NCBI GenBank assembly: GCA_946480925.1
Contig: CAMLLU010000048.1
Coordinates: forward strand, 1 to 41,898
Origin: an uncultured Rivibacter sp.
GTDB taxonomy: Bacteria; Pseudomonadota; Gammaproteobacteria; Burkholderiales; Burkholderiaceae
Direction of reading: 5' to 3'
DNA length: 41,898 bases
Part shown: positions 3-14,509 of the stretch, in pieces
Numbering within the stretch: the first letter of the stretch is position 1
How the letters are laid out: each line of letters begins with the position of its first letter
The notes under the pieces: generated by a model
Databases searched by the model: none
What the model saw: only the letters and a program-made list of their open reading frames with translations
Told to the model about the DNA's origin: nothing
Program-made: the position numbers and the translations under genes

Positions 3-1253
3 CAGGCCCACGGCTATGGCGACGTGGTGAAAGCCCTCAGGCAGGTGAAGTTCGCGCAGTACCAGGGGGCACTGATCAAGGGGATGAACGAGCAGCTCGA
101 CAAGCTGGTGGCGCTGGTGCAGGGCTTTCGCGCCAAGCTGCAGGCGCTCAGCCCGCAGTCGCTGCCCGGCTGGCTGCCGGGGCGGGATGCGGCCATGGCC
201 GCGATCCACAAGAGCGGCGAGCTGATCGAGCAGCTCAACGCGCTGCGCACCAAGGCGCGCGAGATGATCCCCCAGGCGCTGATCGAGATGGACCAGCGCC
301 TGGGTGCGCTGTTGGCGGGCAACGTCAAGGCCGCCACGCAGGTCACGCACACGGTCCACACCGGCACGGCCGCACCGCAGGTCGCACGTGCAGTACCCGA
401 CGAGCGGTTGCCCGGATATGGCCGCACGCCCGCCCCGGAACCCGGCAACACCCGCCGCGTGCGCGAGCGCAGGCTGGTGCAGTTCCACGTGCGCAAGCAT
501 CAGCAGGAGTTTCGGTTCGTCAACAGCAAAGGTGTGCCGGTTGGGGGCAAGCCCTACCACGAGGGCAAGACGGTGTTGGAGCATCCGAAGCTGAAGGCGA
601 AAGACTGGGACAAACAATCCGGTGCGGTGTCTGAGGGCTACCCGGACCTTACGGCGCCAGACTATCGAGGCCGCGCCACGACGAAGTACGACACCTTTTC
701 CGACCTGACAAAAGCCGACCTCAAGCCCGGGGACAAACTGGTGAGAGTGATTGCGCACGATGCACAACCACGGTCGGACTACGGTGAATACTGGACACGC
801 ACGCTGCCAGAGGATGGGCAGCAGCTCCGCGCCGGCACAGCCGTGAAGGAAGCGTGGAACAAGGACGGCAGCTACGTGGAAATGACGGTGCCGCCGAAGG
901 GCCATCCAGTGTGGAAGGAACTGGGGCAGGATTCCAACAACCCGGTCTTGAAGGGCTGGGAAGGGCCTGCTTCGTCTCAGCGCTATGAATTCGCAGATCC
1001 CAAGACCAATCAGAAGATCGGGGACGACTTCTATCTCACGGGCGGCGACAAGCAATTGCTCATGGATGGCAAGCAAATGGAAATCCTGAAGAAGCATGGC
1101 TTCATCAGCGAGCGCAAGCCGACCAACTTCAAGGACTACGACCCCAACGTGGTGAACGGCGATGGCAGCAAGGGCAACATCGTGCCGAGTGGCGACATCC
1201 TCTTCGAGAACGTGCCGCTCGACCAAGCCGTGATGCCTCCCAAGGCCAACTAA
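3..1253 (+). CDS. Polymorphic toxin, C-terminal part (5' end outside window)
   Basis: The reading frame is open from the first bases of the window (codons before the GTG at 24 read QAHGYGDV), so this is the 3' part of a longer gene. The first ~130 visible residues are helical and charged, resembling a trafficking or linker region. From about residue 150 there is a distinct domain rich in aromatics and Gly, with a segment GDKLVRVIAHD, then SDYGEYWTR, a KEAWN stretch, VLKGWEGPA, and FYLTGGDKQLLM. That order (basic strand with Arg, Gly-Tyr-Trp, WN, WEG, GG-Q) recalls polymorphic toxin domains that I suspect to be ADP-ribosyltransferase-like, but I cannot prove the fold. Two immunity-type genes follow 12 bp downstream, which supports a toxin role. 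The delivery system (T6SS or other) cannot be seen. Confidence 0.6.
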   Translation, partial: QAHGYGDVVKALRQVKFAQYQGALIKGMNEQLDKLVALVQGFRAKLQALSPQSLPGWLPGRDAAMAAIHKSGELIEQLNALRTKAREMIPQALIEMDQRLGALLAGNVKAATQVTHTVHTGTAAPQVARAVPDERLPGYGRTPAPEPGNTRRVRERRLVQFHVRKHQQEFRFVNSKGVPVGGKPYHEGKTVLEHPKLKAKDWDKQSGAVSEGYPDLTAPDYRGRATTKYDTFSDLTKADLKPGDKLVRVIAHDAQPRSDYGEYWTRTLPEDGQQLRAGTAVKEAWNKDGSYVEMTVPPKGHPVWKELGQDSNNPVLKGWEGPASSQRYEFADPKTNQKIGDDFYLTGGDKQLLMDGKQMEILKKHGFISERKPTNFKDYDPNVVNGDGSKGNIVPSGDILFENVPLDQAVMPPKAN

Positions 1254-1265
1254 GGAATCAGCGGT

Positions 1266-1961
1266 ATGAACGCTCTACTAGACGAGAAGCCGCTCCGCAA
1301 AGCGTGGCTCAAGCGCAAGTTCGCCTCATGGGCGTACCACGAGGAACTGCTGAAGCTGCACGACGAATACCTGTCGGCGTTGCACCGGCACTGGGCTCGT
1401 GACGATATTCAAAAGCAGTACCCCGGCGACTACAAGGCCATGCAGTCACCGGTCTTCTTCAACTTCGACCGCGTTCCCAAGCCCGGCGAAACACCCAAGG
1501 CGCAGTGGAAGACGGGCAAGACGGTCGGTTGGGCCGATGCGATTTCATACAACTTCAACCGCGGCATGGACTACGCAGGTGTCGACGAATACGCCGGCAT
1601 GCCTGGCGATTTGCGCGAACGTCTCAACGAGTTGGTGGGCCGGATGCTGAGGATGAGCGAGAACATCCGTGTCACGGTTGAAGACCGTTGGGACGACTCT
1701 GACGACGAAGTTCTCATTGAGCGCTACACCGGCCCCATCGACTGGCCATCTAATTGGCGCGATGACGTAGCGGACCTTGCTAGCGGAGTCGCGCCACAGC
1801 TGAGTGTCGAAGCTGGCCAGCCCTGCCCTCGTGAAGGCTGGTGGTTCACGCCAGCTAAGGCCGGCAGCCGGCGTTTCTTCGTTGTTGGACAGGTGATGCC
1901 TGCTTTCAGCACCGACTATGGCGCCACCATCTGGCAGTGGGACGAGAACCAAGACGGGTGA
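1266..1961 (+). CDS. Immunity protein, Imm71/Imm72-like (copy A)
   Basis: 231 aa, ATG preceded by AAGGAA. It starts 12 bp after the toxin stop, the usual toxin-immunity arrangement. The C-terminal third carries the block GQPCPREGWWFTPAKAG followed by SRRFF, MPAF and TDYGATIWQWD, which I associate with the Imm71/Imm72 group of polymorphic-toxin immunity proteins. The family number is from memory and tentative. It has no signal peptide or membrane segment, so the cognate toxin should act in the cytoplasm. It is paralogous to the next gene over its whole length, with the least conserved part around residues 100-150. It presumably binds and neutralises the upstream toxin. Confidence 0.65.
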   Translation: MNALLDEKPLRKAWLKRKFASWAYHEELLKLHDEYLSALHRHWARDDIQKQYPGDYKAMQSPVFFNFDRVPKPGETPKAQWKTGKTVGWADAISYNFNRGMDYAGVDEYAGMPGDLRERLNELVGRMLRMSENIRVTVEDRWDDSDDEVLIERYTGPIDWPSNWRDDVADLASGVAPQLSVEAGQPCPREGWWFTPAKAGSRRFFVVGQVMPAFSTDYGATIWQWDENQDG

Positions 1962-1984
1962 ACTTTTTTCGACTGAATCGAGGG

Positions 1985-2698
1985 ATGACCGACCTTCTCG
2001 ACGAAGAGCAACTGCGCAAGGCATGGTTCAAGCGCAAGTTCACCTCTTGGGAGTACCACGAGGAGTTGCTGAAGCTTCACGCCGAATACCTGACCGCGCT
2101 GCACCGGCACTGGGCCGATGAGCAACGGCAGAAGAGGTACCCCGACTTCTACAAGACGATGGTGTCGCCGGTGTTCTTCAACTTCGACAACGTTCCCAAG
2201 CCAGGTGAAACGCCGAAGACGCAGTGGAAGGCGGGCAAGACGGTCGGCTGGGTCGATGCGATTTCGTACAACTTCAGCCGTGGGCTAGGTGACATCGGTC
2301 CGCCGTTTGATCAATACGTGGAGATGCCACAGGAGCAACGGGACCGTCTCAACAAGCTGGTGGGGTTGATGCTTTCGCATTGCGAGAACATCAAGTACAC
2401 GGTGGAGTCGAGCTATGTGAATCGTCGTACTGGTTCGGACGACAAGATTCTTGATGAGGAAATTACCGGCCCCATCGACTGGCCATCCAACTGGCGCGAC
2501 GACGTAGCCGATCTGGGCATGAGCGGCCAGCAGGTTCTTCGCTGTGAAGCAGGCCAGCCCTGCCCCCGCGAAGGCTGGTGGTTCACCCCCGCCAAGGCCG
2601 GCAGCCGTCGCTTCTTCACACAGGGCGAGCTGATGCCCGCCTTCCGCACCGACTACGGCGCCACGATCTGGCAGTGGGACGAACGACAGGAGCCGTGA
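1985..2698 (+). CDS. Immunity protein, Imm71/Imm72-like (copy B)
   Basis: 237 aa from the ATG at 1985, 23 bp after copy A; an upstream in-frame ATG at 1937 would overlap copy A and is less likely. N-terminal (LLDE.LRKAW.KRKF) and C-terminal (CPREGWWFTPAKAG, TDYGATIWQWDE) blocks match copy A closely, while the middle (about residues 95-160) differs and has a small insertion. Tandem duplication with divergence in the middle suggests the second copy guards against a variant of the toxin. The gene is convergent with rpoN, whose stop lies 57 bp downstream. Confidence 0.65.
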   Translation: MTDLLDEEQLRKAWFKRKFTSWEYHEELLKLHAEYLTALHRHWADEQRQKRYPDFYKTMVSPVFFNFDNVPKPGETPKTQWKAGKTVGWVDAISYNFSRGLGDIGPPFDQYVEMPQEQRDRLNKLVGLMLSHCENIKYTVESSYVNRRTGSDDKILDEEITGPIDWPSNWRDDVADLGMSGQQVLRCEAGQPCPREGWWFTPAKAGSRRFFTQGELMPAFRTDYGATIWQWDERQEP

Positions 2699-2755: not shown

Positions 2756-4183
2756 TCAAGCGTGCCGCCGGCGCTTTTCCACCGCCGGCAGCCGCATCAT
2801 CTGGCGGTACTTGGTAACCGTGCGGCGCGCCACGTTCAGGCCCTGGCGCGCGAGCTGCCGCGCGATCTGCGCGTCGGACACAGGGTCGGCCGCGTCCTCG
2901 GCTTCGATCATTTCGCGGATCACGCTGCGGATGGCCGTGGCCGAGCAGGCCCCGCCGCTGGCGGTGGGCAGCGCACGCGAGAAGAAGTACTTCAGCTCGA
3001 ACACGCCCAGCGGCGTGGACATGTACTTGTTGTTCGTCACGCGCGACACGGTGGACTCGTGCAGCCCCAGCTCCTGCGCGATCTCGCGCAGGCCCAGCGG
3101 CTTCATCGCGAGCGCGCCGTACTCGAAGAAGTTGATCTGGTGCCGGATGATGGCGTTGGCCACGTCGAGGATGGTGGTGAAGCGCTGCTCCACGTTGCGC
3201 AGCGTCCAGCGCGCTTCCTGCAGGTGCGCGGCCAGGGCCGAGTGGCTGGAGTCGCGGTACTTCTGGAAGAGCTCGGCATAGGCCTGATTGAGCTTGACCT
3301 TGGGCACCACGTCGGGGTTGAGCGAGGCGATCCAGTGGCCGCCCTTGCCGCGCCGCACGATCACGTCGGGCGTGACGTAGCGCGTGTCGGCCGAGCCGAA
3401 GCGCCAGCCGGGCCGCGGGTCGAGGTGGCGGATGCGTTCGCACACCGCCTCCACCTGCGCGACGCTGCAGCCCAGCGCCTGCGCCATGTGCGGCACGTCG
3501 CGCATGGCCAGGCGCTCGAGCTGCTCGCTGACGATGCGGCAGGCCAGGTGGCGCTCGGCCAGGTCGTCGAGCTGGCGCAGCTGCAGCAGCAGGCATTCGC
3601 GCACGTCCCGCGCGCCCACGCCGCTGGGGTCCAGCGACTGCACCAGCTTCAGCGCCACGTTGAGTTCGTCGAGATCGAGCGGCGGCGTCAGCTCGGCCAC
3701 GCCGGCCAGCTCGTGCAGGCCCACGCGCAGGTAACCGTCGTCGTCGAGCGCTTCGATCACGAGGCCCACCAGCGCGCGGTCGCGTTCGGACAGCGGCATC
3801 ACGCTGGTCTGCCCGTGCAGGTGCTGCCGCAGCGACACGTCGGCCGCCATCATGTCCATCAGGTCGGTGTCGCCCGAGGCCGAAGACGGCGCGAGGCGCT
3901 GCTCGCCACGTCCGGCCCACAGGCCCCGCTCCTCGAGCGGCTCGATGATCTCGGGGTTGGCCGGCGAAGGCACCTCGGGCTCGGCGGCAGGCTGCTGCGC
4001 GGCTTCGAGTGCCGGCGAGCGCGTCTCGCTGTCTTCCTCGAGGAAGGGGTTGTTGCCGACTGCCTGGCGCACTTCCTGCGCGAAGTCGAGCGATGACAGC
4101 TGCAGCAGCCGCACGGCCTGTTGCAACCTCGGTGTGAGTGTCTGATGCTGCTTCTGCTCAGCACGCAGCGTCTGTGCTTGCAT
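2756..4183 (-). CDS. rpoN: RNA polymerase sigma-54 factor RpoN (orphan locus)
   Basis: 475 aa. The ATG at 4183 is chosen because an AGGAG lies at correct spacing upstream and the protein then begins MQAQTLRAEQKQ, as sigma-54 proteins do; the longer open frame to 4381 lacks homologous character. Region I (QQAVRLLQLSSLDFAQEV) contacts the activator; an acidic linker follows (about 50-120); then the core-binding domain, the helix-turn-helix (LREIAQELGLHESTVSRVTNNKY) and the RpoN box ARRTVTKYR near the C-terminus. It directs core polymerase to -24/-12 promoters and needs an ATP-driven activator. The usual lptB-rpoN-hpf-ptsN neighbours are absent, so this may be a second copy. Many -24/-12 promoter matches and an NtrC-family activator lie in the next 10 kb. 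Confidence 0.95.
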   Translation of the reverse strand: MQAQTLRAEQKQHQTLTPRLQQAVRLLQLSSLDFAQEVRQAVGNNPFLEEDSETRSPALEAAQQPAAEPEVPSPANPEIIEPLEERGLWAGRGEQRLAPSSASGDTDLMDMMAADVSLRQHLHGQTSVMPLSERDRALVGLVIEALDDDGYLRVGLHELAGVAELTPPLDLDELNVALKLVQSLDPSGVGARDVRECLLLQLRQLDDLAERHLACRIVSEQLERLAMRDVPHMAQALGCSVAQVEAVCERIRHLDPRPGWRFGSADTRYVTPDVIVRRGKGGHWIASLNPDVVPKVKLNQAYAELFQKYRDSSHSALAAHLQEARWTLRNVEQRFTTILDVANAIIRHQINFFEYGALAMKPLGLREIAQELGLHESTVSRVTNNKYMSTPLGVFELKYFFSRALPTASGGACSATAIRSVIREMIEAEDAADPVSDAQIARQLARQGLNVARRTVTKYRQMMRLPAVEKRRRHA

Positions 4184-4457
4184 TCTTTCTCCTGCGAGAG
4201 TCGTGGTCACGCTCCGGCCGGCCCTCCATGGGCCGCCTCCCCGCACAGTGCAGTGCACAACGCAACACCCGTGCCGGATCGGCCGGGCGGCCCACTTGTA
4301 TCGGCATGCGTCCACCCCGCATTCGGATTCGGGCCTACAGAGGCCCATTAGGTGGGTTTTGCTTATGCAATCAAGCGACAAACGTGCTCGATCACGTGCA
4401 AAGAAGCACGCGCTTGCGGCAAGAAGTTCTGGTGAGCCAGTGCCCGCTCACGAGCGG
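4184..4457. other. Non-coding region upstream of rpoN with a small hairpin
   Basis: No convincing gene. A perfect 6-bp stem with a 4-nt loop (GGGCCT-ACAG-AGGCCC) lies at 4331-4346 without a T-tract. The rpoN promoter should lie here, but I see no clear -24/-12 or -35/-10 match on the minus strand. Confidence 0.4.
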
Positions 4458-4748
4458 CTACCGCCTTCCGCGCAGGGTGCGCTGGTAGGTCTCGTCCGCC
4501 ACCGGGCCGCGGTCGGTGTCTTGGCGGCCTTGCACGATGTCGTCGTGCGCGCGCTTGAGCACTTCGCGAGGCTCGGTCTCCTGGCTGTCGGACGACTCGT
4601 CGCGTTCGTGCGGCAGGCGGGTGTCTTCACCGCTGTCGTCGCCCGCCAGGTGCTGCGTGGTGGCGCCTTGCGGCGAGCGCCGTCGCGCGGGCGGCGTGAC
4701 CTGCGGCGAAGGCGGCATTGGTGACGTGCGCGGGGGCGCTTTGGCCAT
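4458..4748 (-). CDS. Small hydrophilic stress-type protein (96 aa)
   Basis: A Pro/Arg-rich N-terminus is followed by LPHERDES and a C-terminal block REVLKRAHDDIVQGRQDTDRGPVADETY. The LPHERD...DTDRGP pattern recurs in small uncharacterised proteins of Burkholderiales from memory, so I regard this as a real gene. No signal peptide, membrane segment or known domain. It lies 36 bp downstream of the YihY gene on the same strand, but has its own candidate sigma-54 promoter inside the end of that gene. The function is unknown; the setting suggests stress response. Confidence 0.65.
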   Translation of the reverse strand: MAKAPPRTSPMPPSPQVTPPARRRSPQGATTQHLAGDDSGEDTRLPHERDESSDSQETEPREVLKRAHDDIVQGRQDTDRGPVADETYQRTLRGRR

Positions 4749-4784
4749 GACGTGAACTCCGGGCGCCGCAGGACGTGCGGCGCA

Positions 4785-5717
4785 TCACCCCGAGGGCGGC
4801 AAGCCCCGTTCCCCGGTGGGCTCACAGCCGGGCCGCTCACCGGCCGACACGCCCTCCAGCGTCCATGCCACCGCTGCGCCCAATAGCAAGATTTGTGTGG
4901 AGTAGTAGACCCACAGCATGACCACGGCAAACGAGCCGGCCGCGCCGAAGCTCGAAGTCACGCTGACCCGCCCGAGGTACAGGCCGATAAGGTGCTTGCC
5001 CACCGCGAACAGCAGCGCGCTGGTCACCGCGCCCACCGTCACCGAATGCCAGCGAGGCGACCGGTCGGGCAGCCAGCGCAGGAAGGCCGCGAAGGCCGTG
5101 CTCAGCAGCAGTGCCGACAGCAGCACGTCGAACACGCTGATGAGCGTGGCCAGCACCGGATACAGCCGCTGCAGGTAGCCGCTCACGGCCGCCAGCACGG
5201 CACTGGCCACCAGCGAGACGATGAGCAGGAAGCCGAAGCCCAGCACCAGCGCGAAGGCCATGAGCCGCGCGCGCAGGAAGGCGCCGATGGCCGACGCCGG
5301 TGTTTCCACGCGGCCCATGCGGTTGAGCGCCGTGCGCAGGTGCGCGAACACGCCGCTGGCGCCCACCAGCAGCGTGCCCACGGCAATGAGACCGGCGAGG
5401 CCGCTGCTGTCTTCGCGCCAGGCGGCGGCGATCATGCCCTCGATGCCGCGGGCCGCTTCATGGCCGACCAGGCCTTCGATTTCACCGACGATCTGGCCGC
5501 GCGCCGCTTCCACGCCGAAGATGGTGCCGGCCAGCGCGATGGCGATCACCAGCAGCGGCGCCATCGCGAACATCGAATAGAAGGCGATCGCCGCACCCAG
5601 CTGCGCGCCTTCTTCCGCGATCCACAACTTGACGGCCTGCACACCCACGTGCAGTGCGCGGCGCCACTGCAGCCACGGCAACCAGGGCTTCAGGCGGGCT
5701 GCGTCTCGCACTGCCAT
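4785..5717 (-). CDS. YihY/BrkB family inner-membrane protein
   Basis: 310 aa, typical of the family. After a short N-terminal amphipathic stretch comes the signature EEGAQLGAAIAFYSMFAMAPLLVIAIALAG, then several hydrophobic segments (about 95-120, 135-165, 175-205, 215-240, 245-275), ending GSFAVVMLWVYYSTQILLLGAAVAW. The biochemical role of YihY/BrkB proteins is not settled, and the old RNase BN assignment is wrong. The start overlaps the end of the preceding DUF2334-like gene by 28 bp, so the two are probably co-transcribed and translationally coupled. Confidence 0.9.
   Translation of the reverse strand: MAVRDAARLKPWLPWLQWRRALHVGVQAVKLWIAEEGAQLGAAIAFYSMFAMAPLLVIAIALAGTIFGVEAARGQIVGEIEGLVGHEAARGIEGMIAAAWREDSSGLAGLIAVGTLLVGASGVFAHLRTALNRMGRVETPASAIGAFLRARLMAFALVLGFGFLLIVSLVASAVLAAVSGYLQRLYPVLATLISVFDVLLSALLLSTAFAAFLRWLPDRSPRWHSVTVGAVTSALLFAVGKHLIGLYLGRVSVTSSFGAAGSFAVVMLWVYYSTQILLLGAAVAWTLEGVSAGERPGCEPTGERGLPPSG
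4799..4813 (-). promoter_or_regulatory. Candidate sigma-54 promoter for the 96-aa gene
   Basis: On the minus strand it reads GGGAACGGGGCTTGC followed by C. GG and GC keep the fixed spacing of the -24/-12 elements, with one mismatch in GGCAC (GGAAC) and an exact TTGC. It lies 51 bp before the ATG at 4748, inside the last codons of the YihY gene. Confidence 0.45.
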
Positions 5718-6373
5718 CGCCGCGCCACGTCGGCCATGGTGCGGGCCTGCCGGTACTGCAGGTGCCAGGCGAGGCGACGCTGCCAGTCGCGCCGCACCAT
5801 CGAGTCGTCGGCGTCACGCGGCTGCAGCTCGAAGCGCAGCAGCGGGCCGCTTTCCTCGGTCTCGGTGCGGTCGATCATCGCGTTGCGGCCCAGGCTGGCC
5901 AGCCGGTCGAACATGCCGTCGGCCGAATACGACAGGCGCCGGCTGCGCATGGGCCGCCCCTGCGGCAGCGCGTAGATGTGCTGCGGCTCGATCGCGTAGC
6001 GCAACGGCGTGGAGCACAGCGCCTGGCGAAACGTCGGGCTCATGGCATGCCGCTCGGTCACCAGCCCCAACAGCGGCCAGCGCCTCGAGGCAAACCAGCG
6101 CAGCGCGGCCCGCACCCGCGCGATGGCGGCTTCGTCACCGCCCTTCGCCTCGCGCGTGCCGCTCTCGGCCGCAGCGAGTTCGTCACCGCATTCGAGCCGC
6201 TCCTGCAGATCGTCGAAGAAGGCGCTCGAGCCTTCTTCTTTCATCGCATCGGGTGTGAGCGCCAACGTCAACGGCAGCGCCGCCACGTCGCCGATCGCAT
6301 CGATCACCCGCTGGCAAGCCCGCCACGTGGAAGGTTGCACGCCATGCAACACCACTGCAAGTTCAGCACCCAT
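5690..6373 (-). CDS. DUF2334-like (polysaccharide-deacetylase-fold) protein, probably catalytically degenerate
   Basis: 227 aa. The N-terminus (LAVVLHGVQPSTWRACQRVIDAIG...LPLTLALTP) resembles the start of DUF2334 proteins, where the Asp-containing first strand reads 'hDv.P'. GDELAAAES stands where active members have GDELALHG.xH, so the metal-binding His residues appear to be missing. The C-terminal half (PLRYAIEPQHIYALPQG, RLSYSADGMFDRLASLGRNAMI, WHLQYRQARTMADV) also follows that family. I infer a non-catalytic relative. It is the first gene of an operon with yihY and has a near-perfect sigma-54 promoter 79 bp upstream. Confidence 0.55.
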   Translation of the reverse strand: MGAELAVVLHGVQPSTWRACQRVIDAIGDVAALPLTLALTPDAMKEEGSSAFFDDLQERLECGDELAAAESGTREAKGGDEAAIARVRAALRWFASRRWPLLGLVTERHAMSPTFRQALCSTPLRYAIEPQHIYALPQGRPMRSRRLSYSADGMFDRLASLGRNAMIDRTETEESGPLLRFELQPRDADDSMVRRDWQRRLAWHLQYRQARTMADVARRWQCETQPA

Positions 6374-6451
6374 GTCTTCGGCTCCGATCCATACGTGCGA
6401 GTAACGCTTCGTGAGTTTTGGTCACGTGCGCAAGGAGAGGTGCGCAAAGCA

Positions 6452-6467
6452 GGCAAGCGCCGTGCCG
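6452..6467 (-). promoter_or_regulatory. Sigma-54 promoter (-24/-12) for the DUF2334-like/yihY operon
   Basis: On the minus strand it reads CGGCACGGCGCTTGCC: GGCAC, 5-nt spacer, TTGC, an exact core match to the sigma-54 consensus. It lies 79 bp before the ATG at 6373, and back to back with the plus-strand site at 6498-6513. Confidence 0.7.
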
Positions 6468-6497
6468 CCCCGCCCGTTCGGCGCATGCCTGCTGGAT

Positions 6498-6513
6498 GGG
6501 CACGCAGCCTGCC
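6498..6513 (+). promoter_or_regulatory. Sigma-54 promoter (-24/-12) for the PA2169-like/topoisomerase operon
   Basis: Reads GGGCACGCAGCCTGCC: GGCAC, 5-nt spacer, CTGC (one mismatch to TTGC). It lies 72 bp before the ATG at 6585. Confidence 0.55.
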
Positions 6514-6584
6514 GCACACAGGGTACGTGTCGCGGGCCTTGTGCCCGCGGCTGCCGATCGACGCTTTTTGTGGAGAACCAGCCC

Positions 6585-7031
6585 ATGAATAACGGCCATG
6601 TCGTGGAAGTCCTCAACGAACTGATCGAAACCTGCAAGGACGGCGAGCAAGGTTTTCAAAGCTGTGCCAAGCATGCGGATTCGGACGAGCTGAAGAGCCT
6701 GTTCGCCACCCGCGCGGCCGACTGCGGGCAGGCCGCCGCCGAATTGCAGACCCAGGTGATCCAGTGCGGCGGCCGCCCCGCCAACCACGGCACCACTGCC
6801 GGCGCCTTGCACCGCAGTTGGCTCGCGCTGCGCGGCTCGGTCTCGCGTTATGACGACGTCGCGATGCTGGAGGAATGCGAACGCGGCGAAGACGTGGCGC
6901 TCGACCGCTACCGCGAAGCGCTCGAAGAGCCGCTGCCGCCGGATGTGCGCAGCCTGGTGGAGCGCCAGTTCCATGGCGTGCAGCGCAATCACGACCAGAT
7001 CAAGGCGCTGCGCAACCGGGTGGGAGCATGA
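6585..7031 (+). CDS. PA2169 family four-helix-bundle protein (DUF2383)
   Basis: 148 aa. The ATG at 6585 has TGGAGAA at the right distance; the longer open frame upstream runs through the promoter region. The protein begins NNGHVVEVLNELIETCKDGEQGFQ, the signature opening of PA2169/DUF2383 proteins, followed by long amphipathic helices and a C-terminal VERQFHGVQRNHDQIKALR. The family adopts a ferritin-like bundle and is common in stress gene clusters; its biochemical role is unknown. It is the first gene of a likely operon with the lipoprotein (ATGA overlap) and topoisomerase IB. Confidence 0.85.
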   Translation: MNNGHVVEVLNELIETCKDGEQGFQSCAKHADSDELKSLFATRAADCGQAAAELQTQVIQCGGRPANHGTTAGALHRSWLALRGSVSRYDDVAMLEECERGEDVALDRYREALEEPLPPDVRSLVERQFHGVQRNHDQIKALRNRVGA

Positions 7032-7228
7032 AGATGCGCACCGCACCCCGCCCCTTCGTTGCCGTGCTGGTGGCCTGGGCCGTCGGCATCGCGGGCCTTG
7101 GCGTGCTGGGCGGCTGCGAGAAGCGCGGCGTCACGCCGCCCACGCCTTCCACCGGCACAACACCAGGCGCCGGCAGTGGTGAGGCTCCCGCGGCCGCACC
7201 CCCTGCAAGCGCCCCGTCCACCCCCTGA
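7028..7228 (+). CDS. Small lipoprotein
   Basis: 66 aa; its ATG overlaps the stop of the preceding gene (ATGA), indicating translational coupling. A basic start (KMRTAPRP), a hydrophobic run and the lipobox LGGC near residue 30 indicate signal peptidase II processing. The mature part is only a Pro/Ala/Thr/Gly-rich low-complexity tail (TPPTPSTGTTPGAGSG...). The function is unknown; it could be a small envelope tether. Confidence 0.7.
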   Translation: MKMRTAPRPFVAVLVAWAVGIAGLGVLGGCEKRGVTPPTPSTGTTPGAGSGEAPAAAPPASAPSTP

Positions 7229-7263
7229 AAGCCGCGCCCGCTGCCCGCGCCACCGGCGCCCTG

Positions 7264-8313
7264 GTGTACGTGAGCGACACCGGGCCCGGCTGGCGCCGCC
7301 GGCGGTGCGGCAAAGGCTTCGCCTACTTCGATGAACGGGGCCGCCGCATCCGCGATGCTGCCCGGCTCGCGCGCATTCGCGCGCTGGCCATTCCGCCGGC
7401 CTACCGCGACGTGTGGATCTGCCCGCAACCGCACGGCCACCTGCAAGCCACAGGGCGCGACGCGCGCGGCCGCAAGCAGTACCGCTACCACTTCGATTGG
7501 ATGGCCGAGCGCAACGGCGACAAGTTCGGCCGCATGGCGCAGTTCGGCCGCGCACTGGCCCGCCTGCGCCGGCAGGTGCGCCGCGATCTGGCGTTGCCCG
7601 GCCTGCCGCGCGAGAAGGTGGTCGCCGCGCTCGTGCACCTGCTGGACACGACCTATGCCCGCGTGGGCAATGCCGAATACGCGCGGCACAACGGCTCGTT
7701 CGGTCTTTCCACGCTGAAGGACCGCCATGCCCGCTGGAGCGGCGGCACCGCGCGCCTGTGCTTCCGCGGCAAGGGCGGCGTGCAGCACGAGCTCGAGATC
7801 ACGGACCCGAAGGTCGCGCGCATCCTGCGGCGCTGCCACGACCTGCCCGGCCAACAGCTGTTCCAGTACGTGGACCCCGCCAGCGGCGAGCAGCACGCAG
7901 TCGGCTCGGCCGACGTGAACGACTATCTGCGCACGCACATGCCGGACGGCGAAGGCTTTTCGGCCAAGGACTTTCGCACCTGGCACGCCAGCGTGCTGGC
8001 GTTCGAGCGGCTCGAATGCTGCGAGGCACCGGCCTCAACGGCCGCCGCGAAGCACGTGATCAACGAGGTGCTGGGCGACGTGGCCGCGGAACTGCGGCAC
8101 ACGGTCGCGGTGTGCCGGCGTTCGTATGTGCACCCGCAGGTGCTGGCGCGGTTCGAAAGCGGGCAACTCGCTTCGCGTGTCGGCCTGTCTGCCGCTGCTG
8201 CAGCCGTGGCCGCGCCGCGCGGCCTCACTGCGTGCGAGCGCCGCTTCCTCGCCTTGCTGGAGCGAAGCCGGCCGCGACGGCGGGCTGCCTCAGGGCAGCG
8301 TTTCTTCGGGTGA
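7264..8313 (+). CDS. DNA topoisomerase IB (bacterial, poxvirus-like)
   Basis: 349 aa from GTG 7264; the frame also continues a little upstream, so the start is uncertain (no good ribosome site is seen at 7264). It begins YVSDTGPGWRRRRCGKGFAYFDERGRRIRD, then IRALAIPPAYRDVWICP, typical of bacterial TopIB. The catalytic domain has HLLDTTYARVGNAEYARHNGSFGLSTL, the FRGKGG and KDFRTWHAS motifs, and the nucleophile Tyr in CRRSYVHPQV. It relaxes supercoils by transient 3'-phosphotyrosyl cleavage of one strand. Its tail overlaps the opposite-strand small gene ending at 8290 by 24 bp. Confidence 0.92.
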   Translation: MYVSDTGPGWRRRRCGKGFAYFDERGRRIRDAARLARIRALAIPPAYRDVWICPQPHGHLQATGRDARGRKQYRYHFDWMAERNGDKFGRMAQFGRALARLRRQVRRDLALPGLPREKVVAALVHLLDTTYARVGNAEYARHNGSFGLSTLKDRHARWSGGTARLCFRGKGGVQHELEITDPKVARILRRCHDLPGQQLFQYVDPASGEQHAVGSADVNDYLRTHMPDGEGFSAKDFRTWHASVLAFERLECCEAPASTAAAKHVINEVLGDVAAELRHTVAVCRRSYVHPQVLARFESGQLASRVGLSAAAAAVAAPRGLTACERRFLALLERSRPRRRAASGQRFFG

Positions 8314-8553
8314 GCCGGTGGCTCCGGCGCCGGGCTCGGGGTCGCCCGACACGTGGGGCCGCACCTGCTGGGCCGTCTTGTTGGTGGCCACGGGCACCGC
8401 ACCACCCTCGCCTTCCCAGCGCTGCAGCGGCTCGGGCTTGGCGCGTGGGGTGTTGAGGCGGGCGGCTTCGGCGCGCCGCAGGGCATTCATGCTCATCGTG
8501 AGCAACGCCGCGCCGGCGGCCACGTACAGCAGTTTGGCGGTGATGGAGATCAT
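8290..8553 (-). CDS. Small membrane-anchored protein (87 aa)
   Basis: The ATG at 8553 lies 16 bp after the PRC-barrel stop, with a GGACAGGA-type ribosome site between them, so it is probably the second gene of that operon. It has one N-terminal hydrophobic segment (ITAKLLYVAAGAALLTMSMNA) and then a charged, Pro/Gly-rich tail. No recognised domain. It overlaps the 3' end of topoisomerase IB tail to tail. Confidence 0.6.
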   Translation of the reverse strand: MISITAKLLYVAAGAALLTMSMNALRRAEAARLNTPRAKPEPLQRWEGEGGAVPVATNKTAQQVRPHVSGDPEPGAGATGSPEETLP

Positions 8554-8569
8554 GTGCGGTCCTGTCCAA

Positions 8570-8971
8570 TCAGTCCCAGTACAGCGGCGCGCGGTAGTAG
8601 GCGTGCACGCTGCGGTGCCATTGCTCGTCGGCCTGGTTGGGCCAGTGGTCCTTGTCGAAGCCGGGCGCGTTGTCGAACAGATCGCGTTCAGCGTCGAGCA
8701 CGAAGCACTTGCGGTCGATGTCCAGCACCAGCGCGTGCCACGGAATGGCGAACAGCCGCTCGCCGATGCCCAGCACACCGCCTGACGACATCACAGCGTA
8801 GGCCACGCGGCCGCGCGGCACGTCGAGCATGATTTCGTCGATGGTGCCCAGCGTCTCGTCATTGCGGTTGACCACCTTGTCGCCCGTGAGCGTGGAAGCG
8901 GTCATGAGCCGCGGGCCGGGCCCGCTGGCGTTGGTGTCGATGCGTGCACCGCCGGAGATCGCAGCATTCAT
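8570..8971 (-). CDS. PRC-barrel domain protein
   Basis: 133 aa. The ATG at 8971 is preferred over the one at 8995 because AAGGAG sits just upstream. After a variable N-terminus, MTASTLTGDKVVNRNDETLGTIDEIMLDVPRGRVAYAVMSSGGVLGIGERLFAIPW is a clear PRC-barrel, followed by a conserved-looking acidic/aromatic C-terminus with PGFDKDHWPNQ. Such stand-alone PRC-barrel proteins are common near stress genes and their ligand is unknown. It is divergent from the 67-aa gene, with back-to-back sigma-54 promoter matches between them. Confidence 0.85.
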   Translation of the reverse strand: MNAAISGGARIDTNASGPGPRLMTASTLTGDKVVNRNDETLGTIDEIMLDVPRGRVAYAVMSSGGVLGIGERLFAIPWHALVLDIDRKCFVLDAERDLFDNAPGFDKDHWPNQADEQWHRSVHAYYRAPLYWD

Positions 8972-9052
8972 GGCGGGCTCCTTTCGTGAATGCAAAACCG
9001 TGGACTACATGCGGCCGGCGCCGCAAGAGGGCCTGCCTCGTCAAAGGTGGCG

Positions 9053-9067
9053 GCAACGCCCATGCCC
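9053..9067 (-). promoter_or_regulatory. Sigma-54 promoter for the PRC-barrel operon
   Basis: On the minus strand it reads GGGCATGGGCGTTGC followed by C: GGCAT (one mismatch), 5-nt spacer, TTGC. It lies 82 bp before the ATG at 8971. Confidence 0.55.
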
Positions 9068-9088
9068 GTGGAGAGAGCCCCCCTTCCA

Positions 9089-9104
9089 AGGCACCCCCAT
9101 TGCC
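9089..9104 (+). promoter_or_regulatory. Sigma-54 promoter for the 67-aa gene
   Basis: Reads AGGCACCCCCATTGCC: GGCAC, 5-nt spacer, TTGC, an exact core match. It lies 56 bp before the ATG at 9160, leaving a short leader. Confidence 0.7.
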
Positions 9105-9159
9105 CGATCCAGATGTGCACCTCGTGCACTCATCACTCACTTTCGAAACGGAGATTCAC

Positions 9160-9363
9160 ATGAACCAACCTCGCGACAGTGGCCAGCGTGCGCCGAGCCG
9201 CCACGCTGAAGATGAAAACCGCACGCAACAGCAGCAACAGCAGGCCGACAGCCGCCGCCAGCAGCAGCAGCAGGACCGCGAATCGAATCGCGCCGACTCG
9301 GACCGCAGCAGCGGCAGCCGCAAGAGCCAGCCAGGCTCGCCCGATCGAGACCGCGATCACTAG
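9160..9363 (+). CDS. Small Gln/Arg/Ser-rich hydrophilic protein (67 aa)
   Basis: The ATG at 9160 has a GGAG nearby. The protein is entirely low-complexity: runs of Gln (RTQQQQQQ, RRQQQQQDR) and alternating Arg/Asp/Ser. It has no hydrophobic core, so it should be disordered. It has its own sigma-54-type promoter and a strong terminator 40 bp downstream, which argues that it is a real, separately transcribed unit. The function is unknown; hydrophilin-like stress proteins have similar composition. Confidence 0.6.
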   Translation: MNQPRDSGQRAPSRHAEDENRTQQQQQQADSRRQQQQQDRESNRADSDRSSGSRKSQPGSPDRDRDH

Positions 9364-9401
9364 GCCGGTCCTGTTCGGGGATCCTCTCCAGAGCTTTGAC
9401 C

Positions 9402-9424
9402 AGCGCCCTCCAGGGCGCTTTTTT
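9402..9424 (+). terminator. Rho-independent terminator
   Basis: AGCGCCCT and AGGGCGCT form a perfect 8-bp stem around CC, followed directly by six T. It ends the 67-aa gene's transcript. Confidence 0.85.
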
Positions 9425-9738
9425 CATCCCGCTACGAGGTGCCTCGCGAAAACGCGCCAGCATGGCCGGTAGGAAATACCGGCTGGCCTGCAGTGCTTAC
9501 CCGTTGGGCCTGCGCGAGGGAGTCGCCTGCGACGTGGTGCTTTGCAATGCAGCGAGCGCGGCACAAGAGGCGACTGCCAAGCAACAGCGGTGCCTGCCGG
9601 GCTTGCGCCGCGGTCGCTGCGGTGCAGCACCAAGGCTGGGCACGCAATTTGCGCTTTCCGCCTCGGGGCGGCTGGTTGCGCGTGCATGCGCGGCCCCACT
9701 CCGCCCCCAAGGAACGAACCTTTCATTTGCGAGATTTC

Positions 9739-12186
<2,448 letters not shown>

Positions 12187-12400
12187 GCGTGCGGCCATCC
12201 TGCGGCGCTCATAATCTGCCGAGGGAGCCCCACCGCGACTCGTGGTGAGCCGACCACTGCAACGCCGCACGCGGCACCCGCACGCGCTCACCGCGATACC
12301 GCAGCGCAGCGCTGCGTTTCTGGGCTGCACCGTTCATGCCGGCCTGCGAATCGAAAACACTACACATACATGCCAGCAATGGCCACAGATGGGAGTCACC

Positions 12401-13798
<1,398 letters not shown>

Positions 13799-13817
13799 AC
13801 CTCACCGCTCAGAACCC

Positions 13818-14024
13818 CTAGTGCAGGATGCGCCGCAACACCGCCAGCGGCCGGTTGCCGATGACCCGGTGGGCCGGCGCATCTTCGGTGGGCTCGGGCA
13901 GAACCGGCTCGGGCGGCAAGTCCACCGGCACGGGCTGGTCATGCCGCTCGTTGTTGTCCGGCGGCTTGGGAATGCGATGTTCCGGCGGGGGCGGCATCGA
14001 ATGCAGGTGCAGCGAGCGTGGCAT
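13818..14024 (-). CDS. Small Pro-rich protein (68 aa)
   Basis: The ATG at 14024 is preceded by AGGAG. The sequence is MPRSLHLHSMPPPPEHRIP... with Pro/Glu/Val repeats, ending with a basic HRVIGNRPLAVLRRILH. No known domain. It is convergent with the response regulator (20 bp apart) and preceded by a sigma-54-type promoter 32 bp upstream. Confidence 0.6.
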   Translation of the reverse strand: MPRSLHLHSMPPPPEHRIPKPPDNNERHDQPVPVDLPPEPVLPEPTEDAPAHRVIGNRPLAVLRRILH

Positions 14025-14055
14025 CTTCGGGTCTCCTGGCTCACACACCGCGCCG

Positions 14056-14070
14056 GCAGTCGCCGTGCCC
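14056..14070 (-). promoter_or_regulatory. Sigma-54 promoter for the Pro-rich gene
   Basis: On the minus strand it reads GGGCACGGCGACTGC followed by C: GGCAC, 5-nt spacer, CTGC (one mismatch). It lies 32 bp before the ATG at 14024. Confidence 0.55.
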
Positions 14071-14119
14071 GCCTGCAAAGCTTGCCGCCCTGTCAGAAGT
14101 TTTTGCGGGCTGTTGCAGC

Positions 14120-14133
14120 GCTTGCGCGCAAGC
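14120..14133. promoter_or_regulatory. 14-bp palindrome between divergent sigma-54 promoters
   Basis: GCTTGCGCGCAAGC is perfectly symmetric and sits between the sites at 14056-14070 and 14161-14176, where an activator-binding site could serve both. The half-site TGCGCAA recurs twice at about 6427-6447, beside the other divergent pair. An enhancer role is inference. Confidence 0.35.
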
Positions 14134-14160
14134 ACCGTAGAGCCGCTTCAAGAGCCGCTC

Positions 14161-14176
14161 GGGTACGCAAATTGCC
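14161..14176 (+). promoter_or_regulatory. Sigma-54 promoter for the DUF3606 gene
   Basis: Reads GGGTACGCAAATTGCC: GGTAC (one mismatch), 5-nt spacer, TTGC. It lies 33 bp before the ATG at 14209, just upstream of the ribosome site. Confidence 0.55.
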
Positions 14177-14208
14177 CCACAGCTTCGCGCTAAAAAGGAG
14201 GGCAGCAG

Positions 14209-14409
14209 ATGATCGCAATACACGGTGACACCGCAGGTCGGGACCATCGCAACATCAACCTGACGGCCCTGGACCTCACCTACTGGGCGAAGACGTTCGA
14301 CGTGAGCGCGGACGAATTGCGCAAAGCCGTGCAGGAAGCTGGCACACACGTCGATGCGGTGCGGCAATTCCTGGCCGATCGCCAGTTGTCACTGGATTTG
14401 CAACAGTGA
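14209..14409 (+). CDS. DUF3606 family protein
   Basis: 66 aa with a strong AGGAGGG ribosome site. The core INLTALDLTYWAKTFDVSADELRKAVQEAGTHVDAVRQFLA is a clear DUF3606 domain (small helical protein, about 60 aa, unknown function, often in stress clusters of proteobacteria). It is the last gene of the sigma-54-type cluster; the convergent esterase gene follows. Confidence 0.85.
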   Translation: MIAIHGDTAGRDHRNINLTALDLTYWAKTFDVSADELRKAVQEAGTHVDAVRQFLADRQLSLDLQQ

Positions 14410-14509
14410 CAGGACGCCGCCCGCACCGATGAAAAAGCGCGGGGCCCCACGGCCGCCGCGCCTTCGGTTCAGCACCTGGCTTTCCTGGCGTCTGGCGCAG
14501 CGCTGGCGC

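Follow-up and report, generated by a model that had tools for sequence, protein, structure and literature searches.

A candidate two-tier sigma-54 stress circuit built on a second RpoN and a linked NtrC-type regulator in Burkholderiales

The stretch analysed here (the window) comprises 41,898 nucleotides of contig CAMLLU010000048.1 from an uncultured Rivibacter sp. of the Burkholderiales, and harbours, between positions 2759 and 14409, a cluster encoding a sigma-54 factor (RpoN), a hybrid histidine kinase, an NtrC-type regulator and several small proteins. We propose that the cluster belongs to a stress circuit with two tiers of sigma-54, controlled by the kinase and regulator encoded beside it, in which RpoN1 would serve a second sigma-54 factor, RpoN2, and RpoN2 would in turn serve the stress genes, a reading to which we assign a probability of about 0.68. 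It is built on sequence comparisons, which establish the predicted -24/-12 promoters, their conservation, the linkage of RpoN2 with the regulator, the presence of two promoter types and the alteration of DNA-binding motifs. A preliminary description of the same DNA had put forward a dedicated sigma-54 regulon with a local sigma factor and activator; comparative tests of conservation and linkage support this, with the correction that the local sigma factor is an RpoN2.

Genes and -24/-12 sites of the cluster

Sites were scored with a matrix built from the sigma-54 consensus. The features of the cluster, each with its basis in brackets, were as follows.

2759..4183, - strand: rpoN2, sigma-54 factor of the second-copy type, RpoN box ARRTVTKYRQ (Pfam; NCBIfam NF009118 above cut-off; tree; comparison of the box and helix-turn-helix, HTH)
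4261..4276, - strand: -24/-12 site CGGCACGGGTGTTGCG, 77 nt ahead of rpoN2 (promoter-region scan; not among the seven described earlier)
4458..4748, - strand: small hydrophilic protein, 96 amino acids (no match in Pfam/NCBIfam)
4798..4813, - strand: -24/-12 site GGGAACGGGGCTTGCC (site scans)
4785..5717, - strand: BrkB/YihY membrane protein (Pfam PF03631)
5690..6373, - strand: DUF2334/deacetylase-like protein (NCBIfam NF053788, sub-threshold)
6452..6467, - strand: -24/-12 site CGGCACGGCGCTTGCC (site scans)
6498..6513, + strand: -24/-12 site GGGCACGCAGCCTGCC (site scans)
6585..7031, + strand: DUF2383 / PA2169-family protein (Pfam/NCBIfam)
7028..7228, + strand: small putative lipoprotein (sequence; no family match)
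7264..8313, + strand: DNA topoisomerase IB (Pfam)
8290..8553, - strand: small putative membrane protein, downstream of PRC (sequence; no family match)
8570..8971, - strand: PRC-barrel protein (Pfam)
9052..9067, - strand: -24/-12 site GGGCATGGGCGTTGCC (site scans)
9089..9104, + strand: -24/-12 site AGGCACCCCCATTGCC (site scans)
9160..9363, + strand: tiny Gln/Arg-rich hydrophilic protein, 67 amino acids (sequence; no family match)
9580..9595, - strand: orphan -24/-12-like site AGGCACCGCTGTTGCT, no clear gene downstream on its strand (site scans)
9638..9653, + strand: -24/-12 site GGGCACGCAATTTGCG ahead of the kinase (site scans; missed earlier)
9739..12186, + strand: hybrid histidine kinase with PAS domains, HisKA, HATPase and receiver; start inferred (Pfam)
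12401..13798, + strand: NtrC-type activator with receiver, AAA+ domain with GSFTGA and Fis-type HTH; without a -24/-12 site of its own (Pfam; sequence; site scan)
13818..14024, - strand: tiny proline-rich protein (sequence)
14055..14070, - strand: -24/-12 site GGGCACGGCGACTGCC (site scans)
14161..14176, + strand: -24/-12 site GGGTACGCAAATTGCC (site scans)
14209..14409, + strand: DUF3606 protein (Pfam)

The window RpoN possesses all three sigma-54 domains by Pfam (activator-interacting PF00309, core-binding PF04963 and DNA-binding PF04552), and sigma-54 chains of the PDB align with it across residues 4-472; its RpoN box is a variant of the ARRTVAKYRE-like box. Pfam and NCBIfam bore out the identities proposed earlier for rpoN, the hybrid kinase and the NtrC-type regulator, as well as the target labels BrkB/YihY, DUF2383 (PA2169 family), topoisomerase IB, PRC and DUF3606. 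The protein with the DUF2334-like label has no Pfam match, and in NCBIfam a model for GlcNAc-phosphatidylglycerol deacetylase fits it with 95 bits (E 3.8e-27), short of the cut-off of 280. An Rfam scan of the window gave no match.

All seven -24/-12 sites of the preliminary description are present where it placed them, with GG and GC correctly spaced. They lie on the strand of the next gene with their ends 30-80 nt ahead of its start, all end in TGCC, two hold the exact GGCAC-N5-TTGC, and three divergent pairs are formed. It had overlooked three more, at 9638-9653 (+), 4261-4276 (-) and 9580-9595 (-). The last of these, an orphan of good -24/-12 likeness, may belong to an RNA or be a chance match.

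Counts over the whole window were dropped as evidence, since they show no clear excess over shuffles: GG-N10-GC alone is uninformative (1061 found against 1028 expected), and TGGCAC-N5-TTGC with up to two mismatches occurs 83 times against 73 expected, a count reached in 12 of 100 shuffles. At the cluster promoters, a correctly spaced site scoring at least 8.5 was present in nine of ten regions (shuffle mean 0.49; none of 2000 shuffles reached nine), the regulator's own promoter being the sole region without one. These ten regions were picked after the sites had been seen, and therefore the independent tests weigh more. The spacing test is weaker within positions 4100-14500 of the window alone, where 16 sites scored at least 9 (4-9 at wrong spacings) and six scored at least 12 (0-4).

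Site conservation and linkage of RpoN2 with the regulator

For comparison, we took the best 80 loci among the matches listed in a scan for regulator relatives, which together with the window gave 81 loci. In these, 172 sites scored at least 14 at the true spacing, as compared to 19-39 at seven wrong spacings. In nine loci of six genomes (six regulator and three rpoN2 loci), 34 sites scored at least 13 (2-10 at wrong spacings), whereas 20 other 20-kb stretches of the same genomes (400 kb) had 11 against 9-20, showing no excess. Enrichment, a point raised in the preliminary description, was thus seen in the regulator neighbourhoods of relatives and not in 400 kb elsewhere, although matches to the shifted consensus described below extend beyond the cluster.

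Orthologues of the cluster genes were checked for a site within 260 nt upstream, at the true spacing and at seven wrong ones. Such a site precedes 51 of the 54 rpoN orthologue rows (1-4 at wrong spacings), and 43 of the 44 distinct rpoN2 genes that remain after removal of repeats (L118, L120, L123, L124, L125), extra pieces (two of L045, one of L066), an artefact (L007) and the lone rpoN1 row (L122), which has no upstream site. Sites were also found upstream of 8 of 24 DUF2383 orthologues (0-1 at wrong spacings), 5 of 13 topoisomerase IB orthologues (0), 4 of 11 PRC orthologues (0-1) and 3 of 4 homologues of the small protein at 4458-4748 (0). Regulator rows showed no excess (9 of 127, against 2-13). 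Conservation of the sites in relatives, also raised before, held ahead of rpoN, DUF2383, topoisomerase IB and PRC at the true spacing only.

Sites scoring at least 12 in relatives precede a gene of glycosyltransferase family 20 (trehalose-phosphate synthase type) in 25 loci, and genes of the BON (11 loci), DUF883 (8), KGG (6, one a repeat), hemerythrin (6) and CsbD (4) families; PRC, transglycosylase-associated, DJ-1/PfpI and short-chain dehydrogenase genes follow such sites in 3 loci each. This survey also took in L111-L125, and one representative per family was scanned with Pfam. The families downstream of sites in the loci are stress-protection families, which holds only partly at 20 distal sites considered below.

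The window rpoN belongs with the second copies, that is, with the RpoN2 type. In a tree of 70 rows, from which linked rpoN copies of the 120-genome sample described below were excluded, a single clade (100/99), without the window, unites the 27 rows that were the best rpoN hits (RpoN1), and the window RpoN forms another (100/100) with 16 second-copy rows. The earlier question of a second rpoN was taken up in the relatives, where 66 of 76 regulator-bearing genomes (23 of 28 and 43 of 48) have at least two rpoN matches; this count covers 76 of 78 loci taken for it (all but L031 and L054), and L065 and L072 lie outside it.

Linkage was determined in a sample of 120 Burkholderiales genomes that was not chosen by the regulator. 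Twelve have at least two strong rpoN, a weak or split second match not being counted (G096, G104, G124, G128, G147, G191), and 11 of the twelve hold a full-length regulator of at least 50% identity, the twelfth (G097) having only a partial, receiver-less match. Three genomes carry the regulator and no second rpoN. Without the centre genome, the regulator is present in 10 of 11 two-rpoN genomes as compared to 3 of 108 others (Fisher 2.9e-11), with an identity cut set after the list was seen; 21 genomes had matched at 1e-100, and full-length matches at 43-44% (G182, G192) and partial ones (G097, G102, G106, G108, G149) were left out. Counting all 21 matches, again without the centre genome, gives 11 of 11 against 9 of 108. 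All 11 RpoN2-regulator pairs, centre included, lie on the same contig, 63 bp to 17.3 kb apart.

Some features of individual loci may be recorded here. In many Burkholderiaceae loci, among them many of L030-L054, tiny proline-rich proteins (PEPIEPP or IGDPPP type) are encoded behind a sigma-54 site just after the regulator (in most at about 11440-11560), and the window likewise has a tiny proline-rich protein adjoining the regulator. A receiver-less sigma-54 activator of about 360 amino acids (family F001, GSFTGA in 39 of 44 members) is encoded close to the regulator in 43 of the 81 loci and is divergent to it in many of L029-L080. On a contig titled Methylococcaceae (L021), a regulator with 63% identity is found together with genes for CsbD and EF-hand proteins that follow sigma-54 sites, by transfer or misbinning. 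The rpoN2 of a metagenome-assembled genome (MAG) titled Bordetella parapertussis (L025) lies very close on the tree to those of three MAGs with no title beyond Burkholderiales (L024, L026, L027), with similar gene order, and the title of L025 is doubtful.

Two promoter types and the RpoN2 DNA-binding motifs

We compared sites scored on core positions alone, leaving -26 and -11 free, in the Sphaerotilaceae/Comamonadaceae loci (hereafter the group), with the window included and L121, 6.3 kb of which repeats L005, left out; counts with and without L121 are nearly equal. Among 220 sites of the group not flagged as rpoN2 sites, 155 carry C at -11 and 121 carry G at -26 (148 and 115 of 211 without the window), a few unflagged rpoN2 sites that remain in this set lessening the contrast. 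The 27 flagged rpoN2 sites, from the group and Burkholderiaceae, have C at -11 in 7% (about 2 of 27) and G at -26 in none. P-II genes (glnB/glnK type) are canonical RpoN1/NtrC targets. Thirty P-II loci, taken from 15 genomes of the group, hold 20 sites; none of these carries C at -11, one carries G at -26, and 17 carry T at -26. The non-rpoN2 sites of the group mostly follow a shifted consensus, GGGCAYG-N4-TTGCC; the earlier remark that all seven sites end in TGCC had thus picked up a genuine signal.

The shifted pattern GGGCAYGNNNNTTGCC (GGGCAYGN4TTGCC) has 143 matches in nine genomes, and its reverse has 3. Of the 143, 52 fall less than 40 kb from rpoN2, in a zone that makes up no more than about 1.4% of the sequence; in G002, none of its 8 matches do. 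In two-rpoN loci of the group (a second rpoN being assumed for the window), TTGCC occurs 99 times and TTGCA 12 times, where other gaps give means of 3.7 and 2.0, respectively. The corresponding numbers for Burkholderiaceae are 66 against 2.1 for TTGCT, 29 against 2.9 for TTGCA, 38 against 10.9 for TTGCG and 12 against 4.6 for TTGCC. Single-rpoN loci of Noviherbaspirillum/Burkholderiales (four loci; TTGCC 3 against 1.7) and Ramlibacter (two loci; 1 against 0.7) show no clear excess. Two other searches were set aside: an iteratively trained TTGCC-type matrix drifted from 97 to 706 sites and matched background too, and a GGCAYGN4TTGCW scan of four genomes gave 87 matches where the reversed control gave 43, no more than a twofold difference.

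Twenty distal TTGCC sites were picked before their genes were examined. Four of them precede typical small stress or envelope families (BON, hemerythrin, DUF4142, glycine-zipper) and six precede open reading frames (ORFs) without a family; the other genes are HlyIII, endonuclease/phosphatase, KaiC-like, 6PGD-like, CheB/CheR, DUF2242, GGDEF, receiver domain and two DoxX/epimerase.

Comparison of the sigma factors revealed that the RpoN box ARRTVAKYRE, ending in E, is present in 27 of 27 RpoN1 rows, whereas none of the 41 second-copy rows with a readable box ends in E (two more are unreadable). All 17 RpoN2 of the window's group have T as residue 457, with Q (15) or H (2) as residue 461. Residue 384 of the HTH is T in 27 of 27 RpoN1, N (15) or S (2) in the window's group, and mostly G (15 of 19) in second copies of Burkholderiaceae/Alcaligenaceae. 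These changes in the box and HTH might underlie the promoter shift.

As for the regulator, its loop reads GSFTGA in 77 of the 81 members, window included, and GAFTGA in four. Upstream of strong sites, TGTAAAAA is enriched, but mostly near Burkholderiaceae rpoN2, and TTGCnGCAA gives a weak signal (10 against 2.5). A TTTTGCC...GTGTAAAAAGTGCGC-like element, a candidate activator site in Burkholderiaceae, is conserved some 70-110 nt ahead of the rpoN2 -24/-12 site (L029, L030, L032, L033, L036, L038, L040, L041, L045, L047, L056, L114, L115). Back-to-back divergent sites were considered as a special architecture and rejected, their excess over convergent pairs being only modest.

Ahead of the cluster, a large ORF at 24-1253 (+) resembles part of a polymorphic toxin-type protein, and two similar, slightly overlapping genes at 1266-1961 and 1937-2698 (+) resemble duplicated immunity-type genes; none has a Pfam match.

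The proposed circuit, its alternatives and known systems

In the circuit that we favour, the hybrid kinase (9739-12186) would sense a signal and phosphorylate the NtrC-type regulator (12401-13798), its probable partner. Housekeeping RpoN1 would transcribe rpoN2 from the near-canonical -24/-12 promoter at 4261-4276; that rpoN2 transcription needs RpoN1 is suggested by analogy with a Ralstonia report cited below, and is the sole step with outside support. RpoN2 holoenzyme, and not RpoN1, would then occupy the shifted-consensus promoters (in this group GGGCAYG-N4-TTGCC), and the local regulator would open them, leading to expression of PRC, DUF2383, topoisomerase IB, DUF3606, the tiny hydrophilic proteins and the kinase itself. 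Promoters of the -24/-12 type need an ATP-dependent activator, which would give switch-like control. The outcome would presumably be stress protection. By their sequence, the two promoter types appear to be told apart at -11, as in a module of Cereibacter (Rhodobacter) sphaeroides, with Cupriavidus as an exception. We also lean, if only slightly, towards a Burkholderiales-wide version. In it, RpoN2 would be a dedicated stress sigma-54, turned on by RpoN1 and accompanied by a kinase-regulator pair of its own, and it would use an altered consensus that changed in step with its RpoN box and HTH; each cell would then have two parallel sigma-54 networks. In Sphaerotilaceae/Comamonadaceae, position -11 of this consensus would be C and position -26 G; in Burkholderiaceae, position -11 would mostly be T, G or A.

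Several results weigh against the proposed circuit. A site was found upstream of none of 17 BrkB and none of 5 DUF2334/deacetylase-like homologues, and regulon membership of these two is thus weakly supported. The genes at the distal sites suggest that the wider target set is mixed. Apart from the elements named above, no regulator binding site emerged when enriched dyads and words were sought ahead of strong sites, and divergent site pairs stand 21-42 bp apart (30 and 21 bp for the window pairs 6452-6513 and 9052-9104), too close for an activator site to fit between the two. Midpoint rooting of the tree does not gather all RpoN2 into one clade, and Burkholderiaceae RpoN2 loci favour TTGCT/TTGCA over TTGCC. 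Ten of the 76 regulator-bearing genomes, some of them MAGs, show one rpoN; three single-rpoN Cupriavidus loci have 7 TTGCC sites against 0.7 expected; and Ralstonia rpoN2 mutants had no phenotype in the tests described in the available parts of two reports (PMC4371752, PMC4676750). With the Cupriavidus sites, C at -11 cannot be taken as a strict mark of RpoN2, and RpoN1 may read them there, which weakens the idea that C at -11 needs RpoN2.

The last three of these observations also favour a different arrangement, in which the local regulator does open genuine promoters, yet all of them are served by housekeeping RpoN1, RpoN2 being an accessory or amplifying copy and the difference at -11/-26 reflecting promoter strength or regulator preference. 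We regard this as unlikely, though it is the rival to be taken most seriously, because RpoN2 and the regulator are tightly linked (11 of 11 on one contig), RpoN box and HTH are altered in RpoN2, two separate promoter types occur within the same group of genomes, and Ralstonia rpoN2, in the account available, could replace rpoN1 for C4-dicarboxylates only (PMC4676750). The sites could also be operators of a dimeric repressor or activator, as C at -11 makes the outer GGCA/TGCC palindromic and the spacing of the inverted repeat GGCA-N7-TGCC is strongly conserved (137 in 516 kb, as compared to 17-40 at other gaps). This palindromic operator was rejected as highly improbable on account of sigma-54 asymmetry and non-symmetric flanks: in 101 of the 140 repeats of an earlier count, position -21 is Y and position -15 is T, and the bases at -10 and -26 are not mirror images of each other. 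Moreover, Burkholderiaceae sites end mostly in TTGCT/A/G, and the window's sites stand 30-85 nt ahead of starts on the coding strand. Equally hard to credit is a chance origin, in which the seven sites would be matches in G+C-rich DNA picked by a reader in search of them and the genes would use sigma-70 or RpoS promoters; the whole-window counts and the weak spacing control within the window fit it, but the promoter-region shuffles, the wrong spacings over 81 loci, the other genome regions and the conservation at orthologues contradict it.

If the proposed circuit holds, it would give the second rpoN of Burkholderiales a specific, testable role, a stress regulon with named activator, sensor, promoter consensus and targets. 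RpoN2 and the regulator are found paired again across a large set of bacteria from soil and water, and the sigma-54 paralogues with their promoters form a natural series for studying how -11 and -26 are read. Among the matches listed from open-access literature, we saw no apparent description of this regulon, which is not proof of its absence.

The nearest parallel is in C. sphaeroides, where, in the part of the report available, several rpoN genes each have their own activator and gene set (RpoN1-NifA, RpoN2-FleQ, RpoN3-AprX) and position -11 discriminates RpoN1 from RpoN2 promoters (PMC11999139, citing Poggio 2006). That system, as described there, belongs to Alphaproteobacteria and concerns nitrogen fixation, flagella and an Xre regulator, whereas ours is from Burkholderiales, has stress-family genes under apparent two-component control and places rpoN2 behind a sigma-54-type promoter. 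A second rpoN behind a -24/-12 site is shared with Ralstonia solanacearum, in which expression of rpoN2 is reported to depend on rpoN1 and 'its role remains enigmatic' (PMC4371752), and RpoN2 is reported to be unable to fully replace RpoN1 (PMC4676750). The available parts of these reports connect rpoN2 with neither this regulator nor a stress regulon; in our comparison, two Ralstonia loci (L034, L037) have RpoN2, the regulator and sites together. In Burkholderia pseudomallei, a stress gene is likewise under RpoN2, the catalase gene katE, which needs RpoN2 and has a predicted RpoN box; this is one target, and the accessible text describes no regulator, cluster or promoter type (PMC4745423).

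The proposed regulon also resembles RpoS-type and general stress regulons in the families it shares with them. OtsA, BON/OsmY-like, DUF883, CsbD, KGG and DJ-1 families are usually assigned to RpoS or sigma-B regulons. Unlike in RpoS-type regulons, the promoters here are of the -24/-12 type, and genes usually assumed to be under RpoS-type control would, if the circuit is true, be under ATP-gated sigma-54 control in a large environmental lineage.

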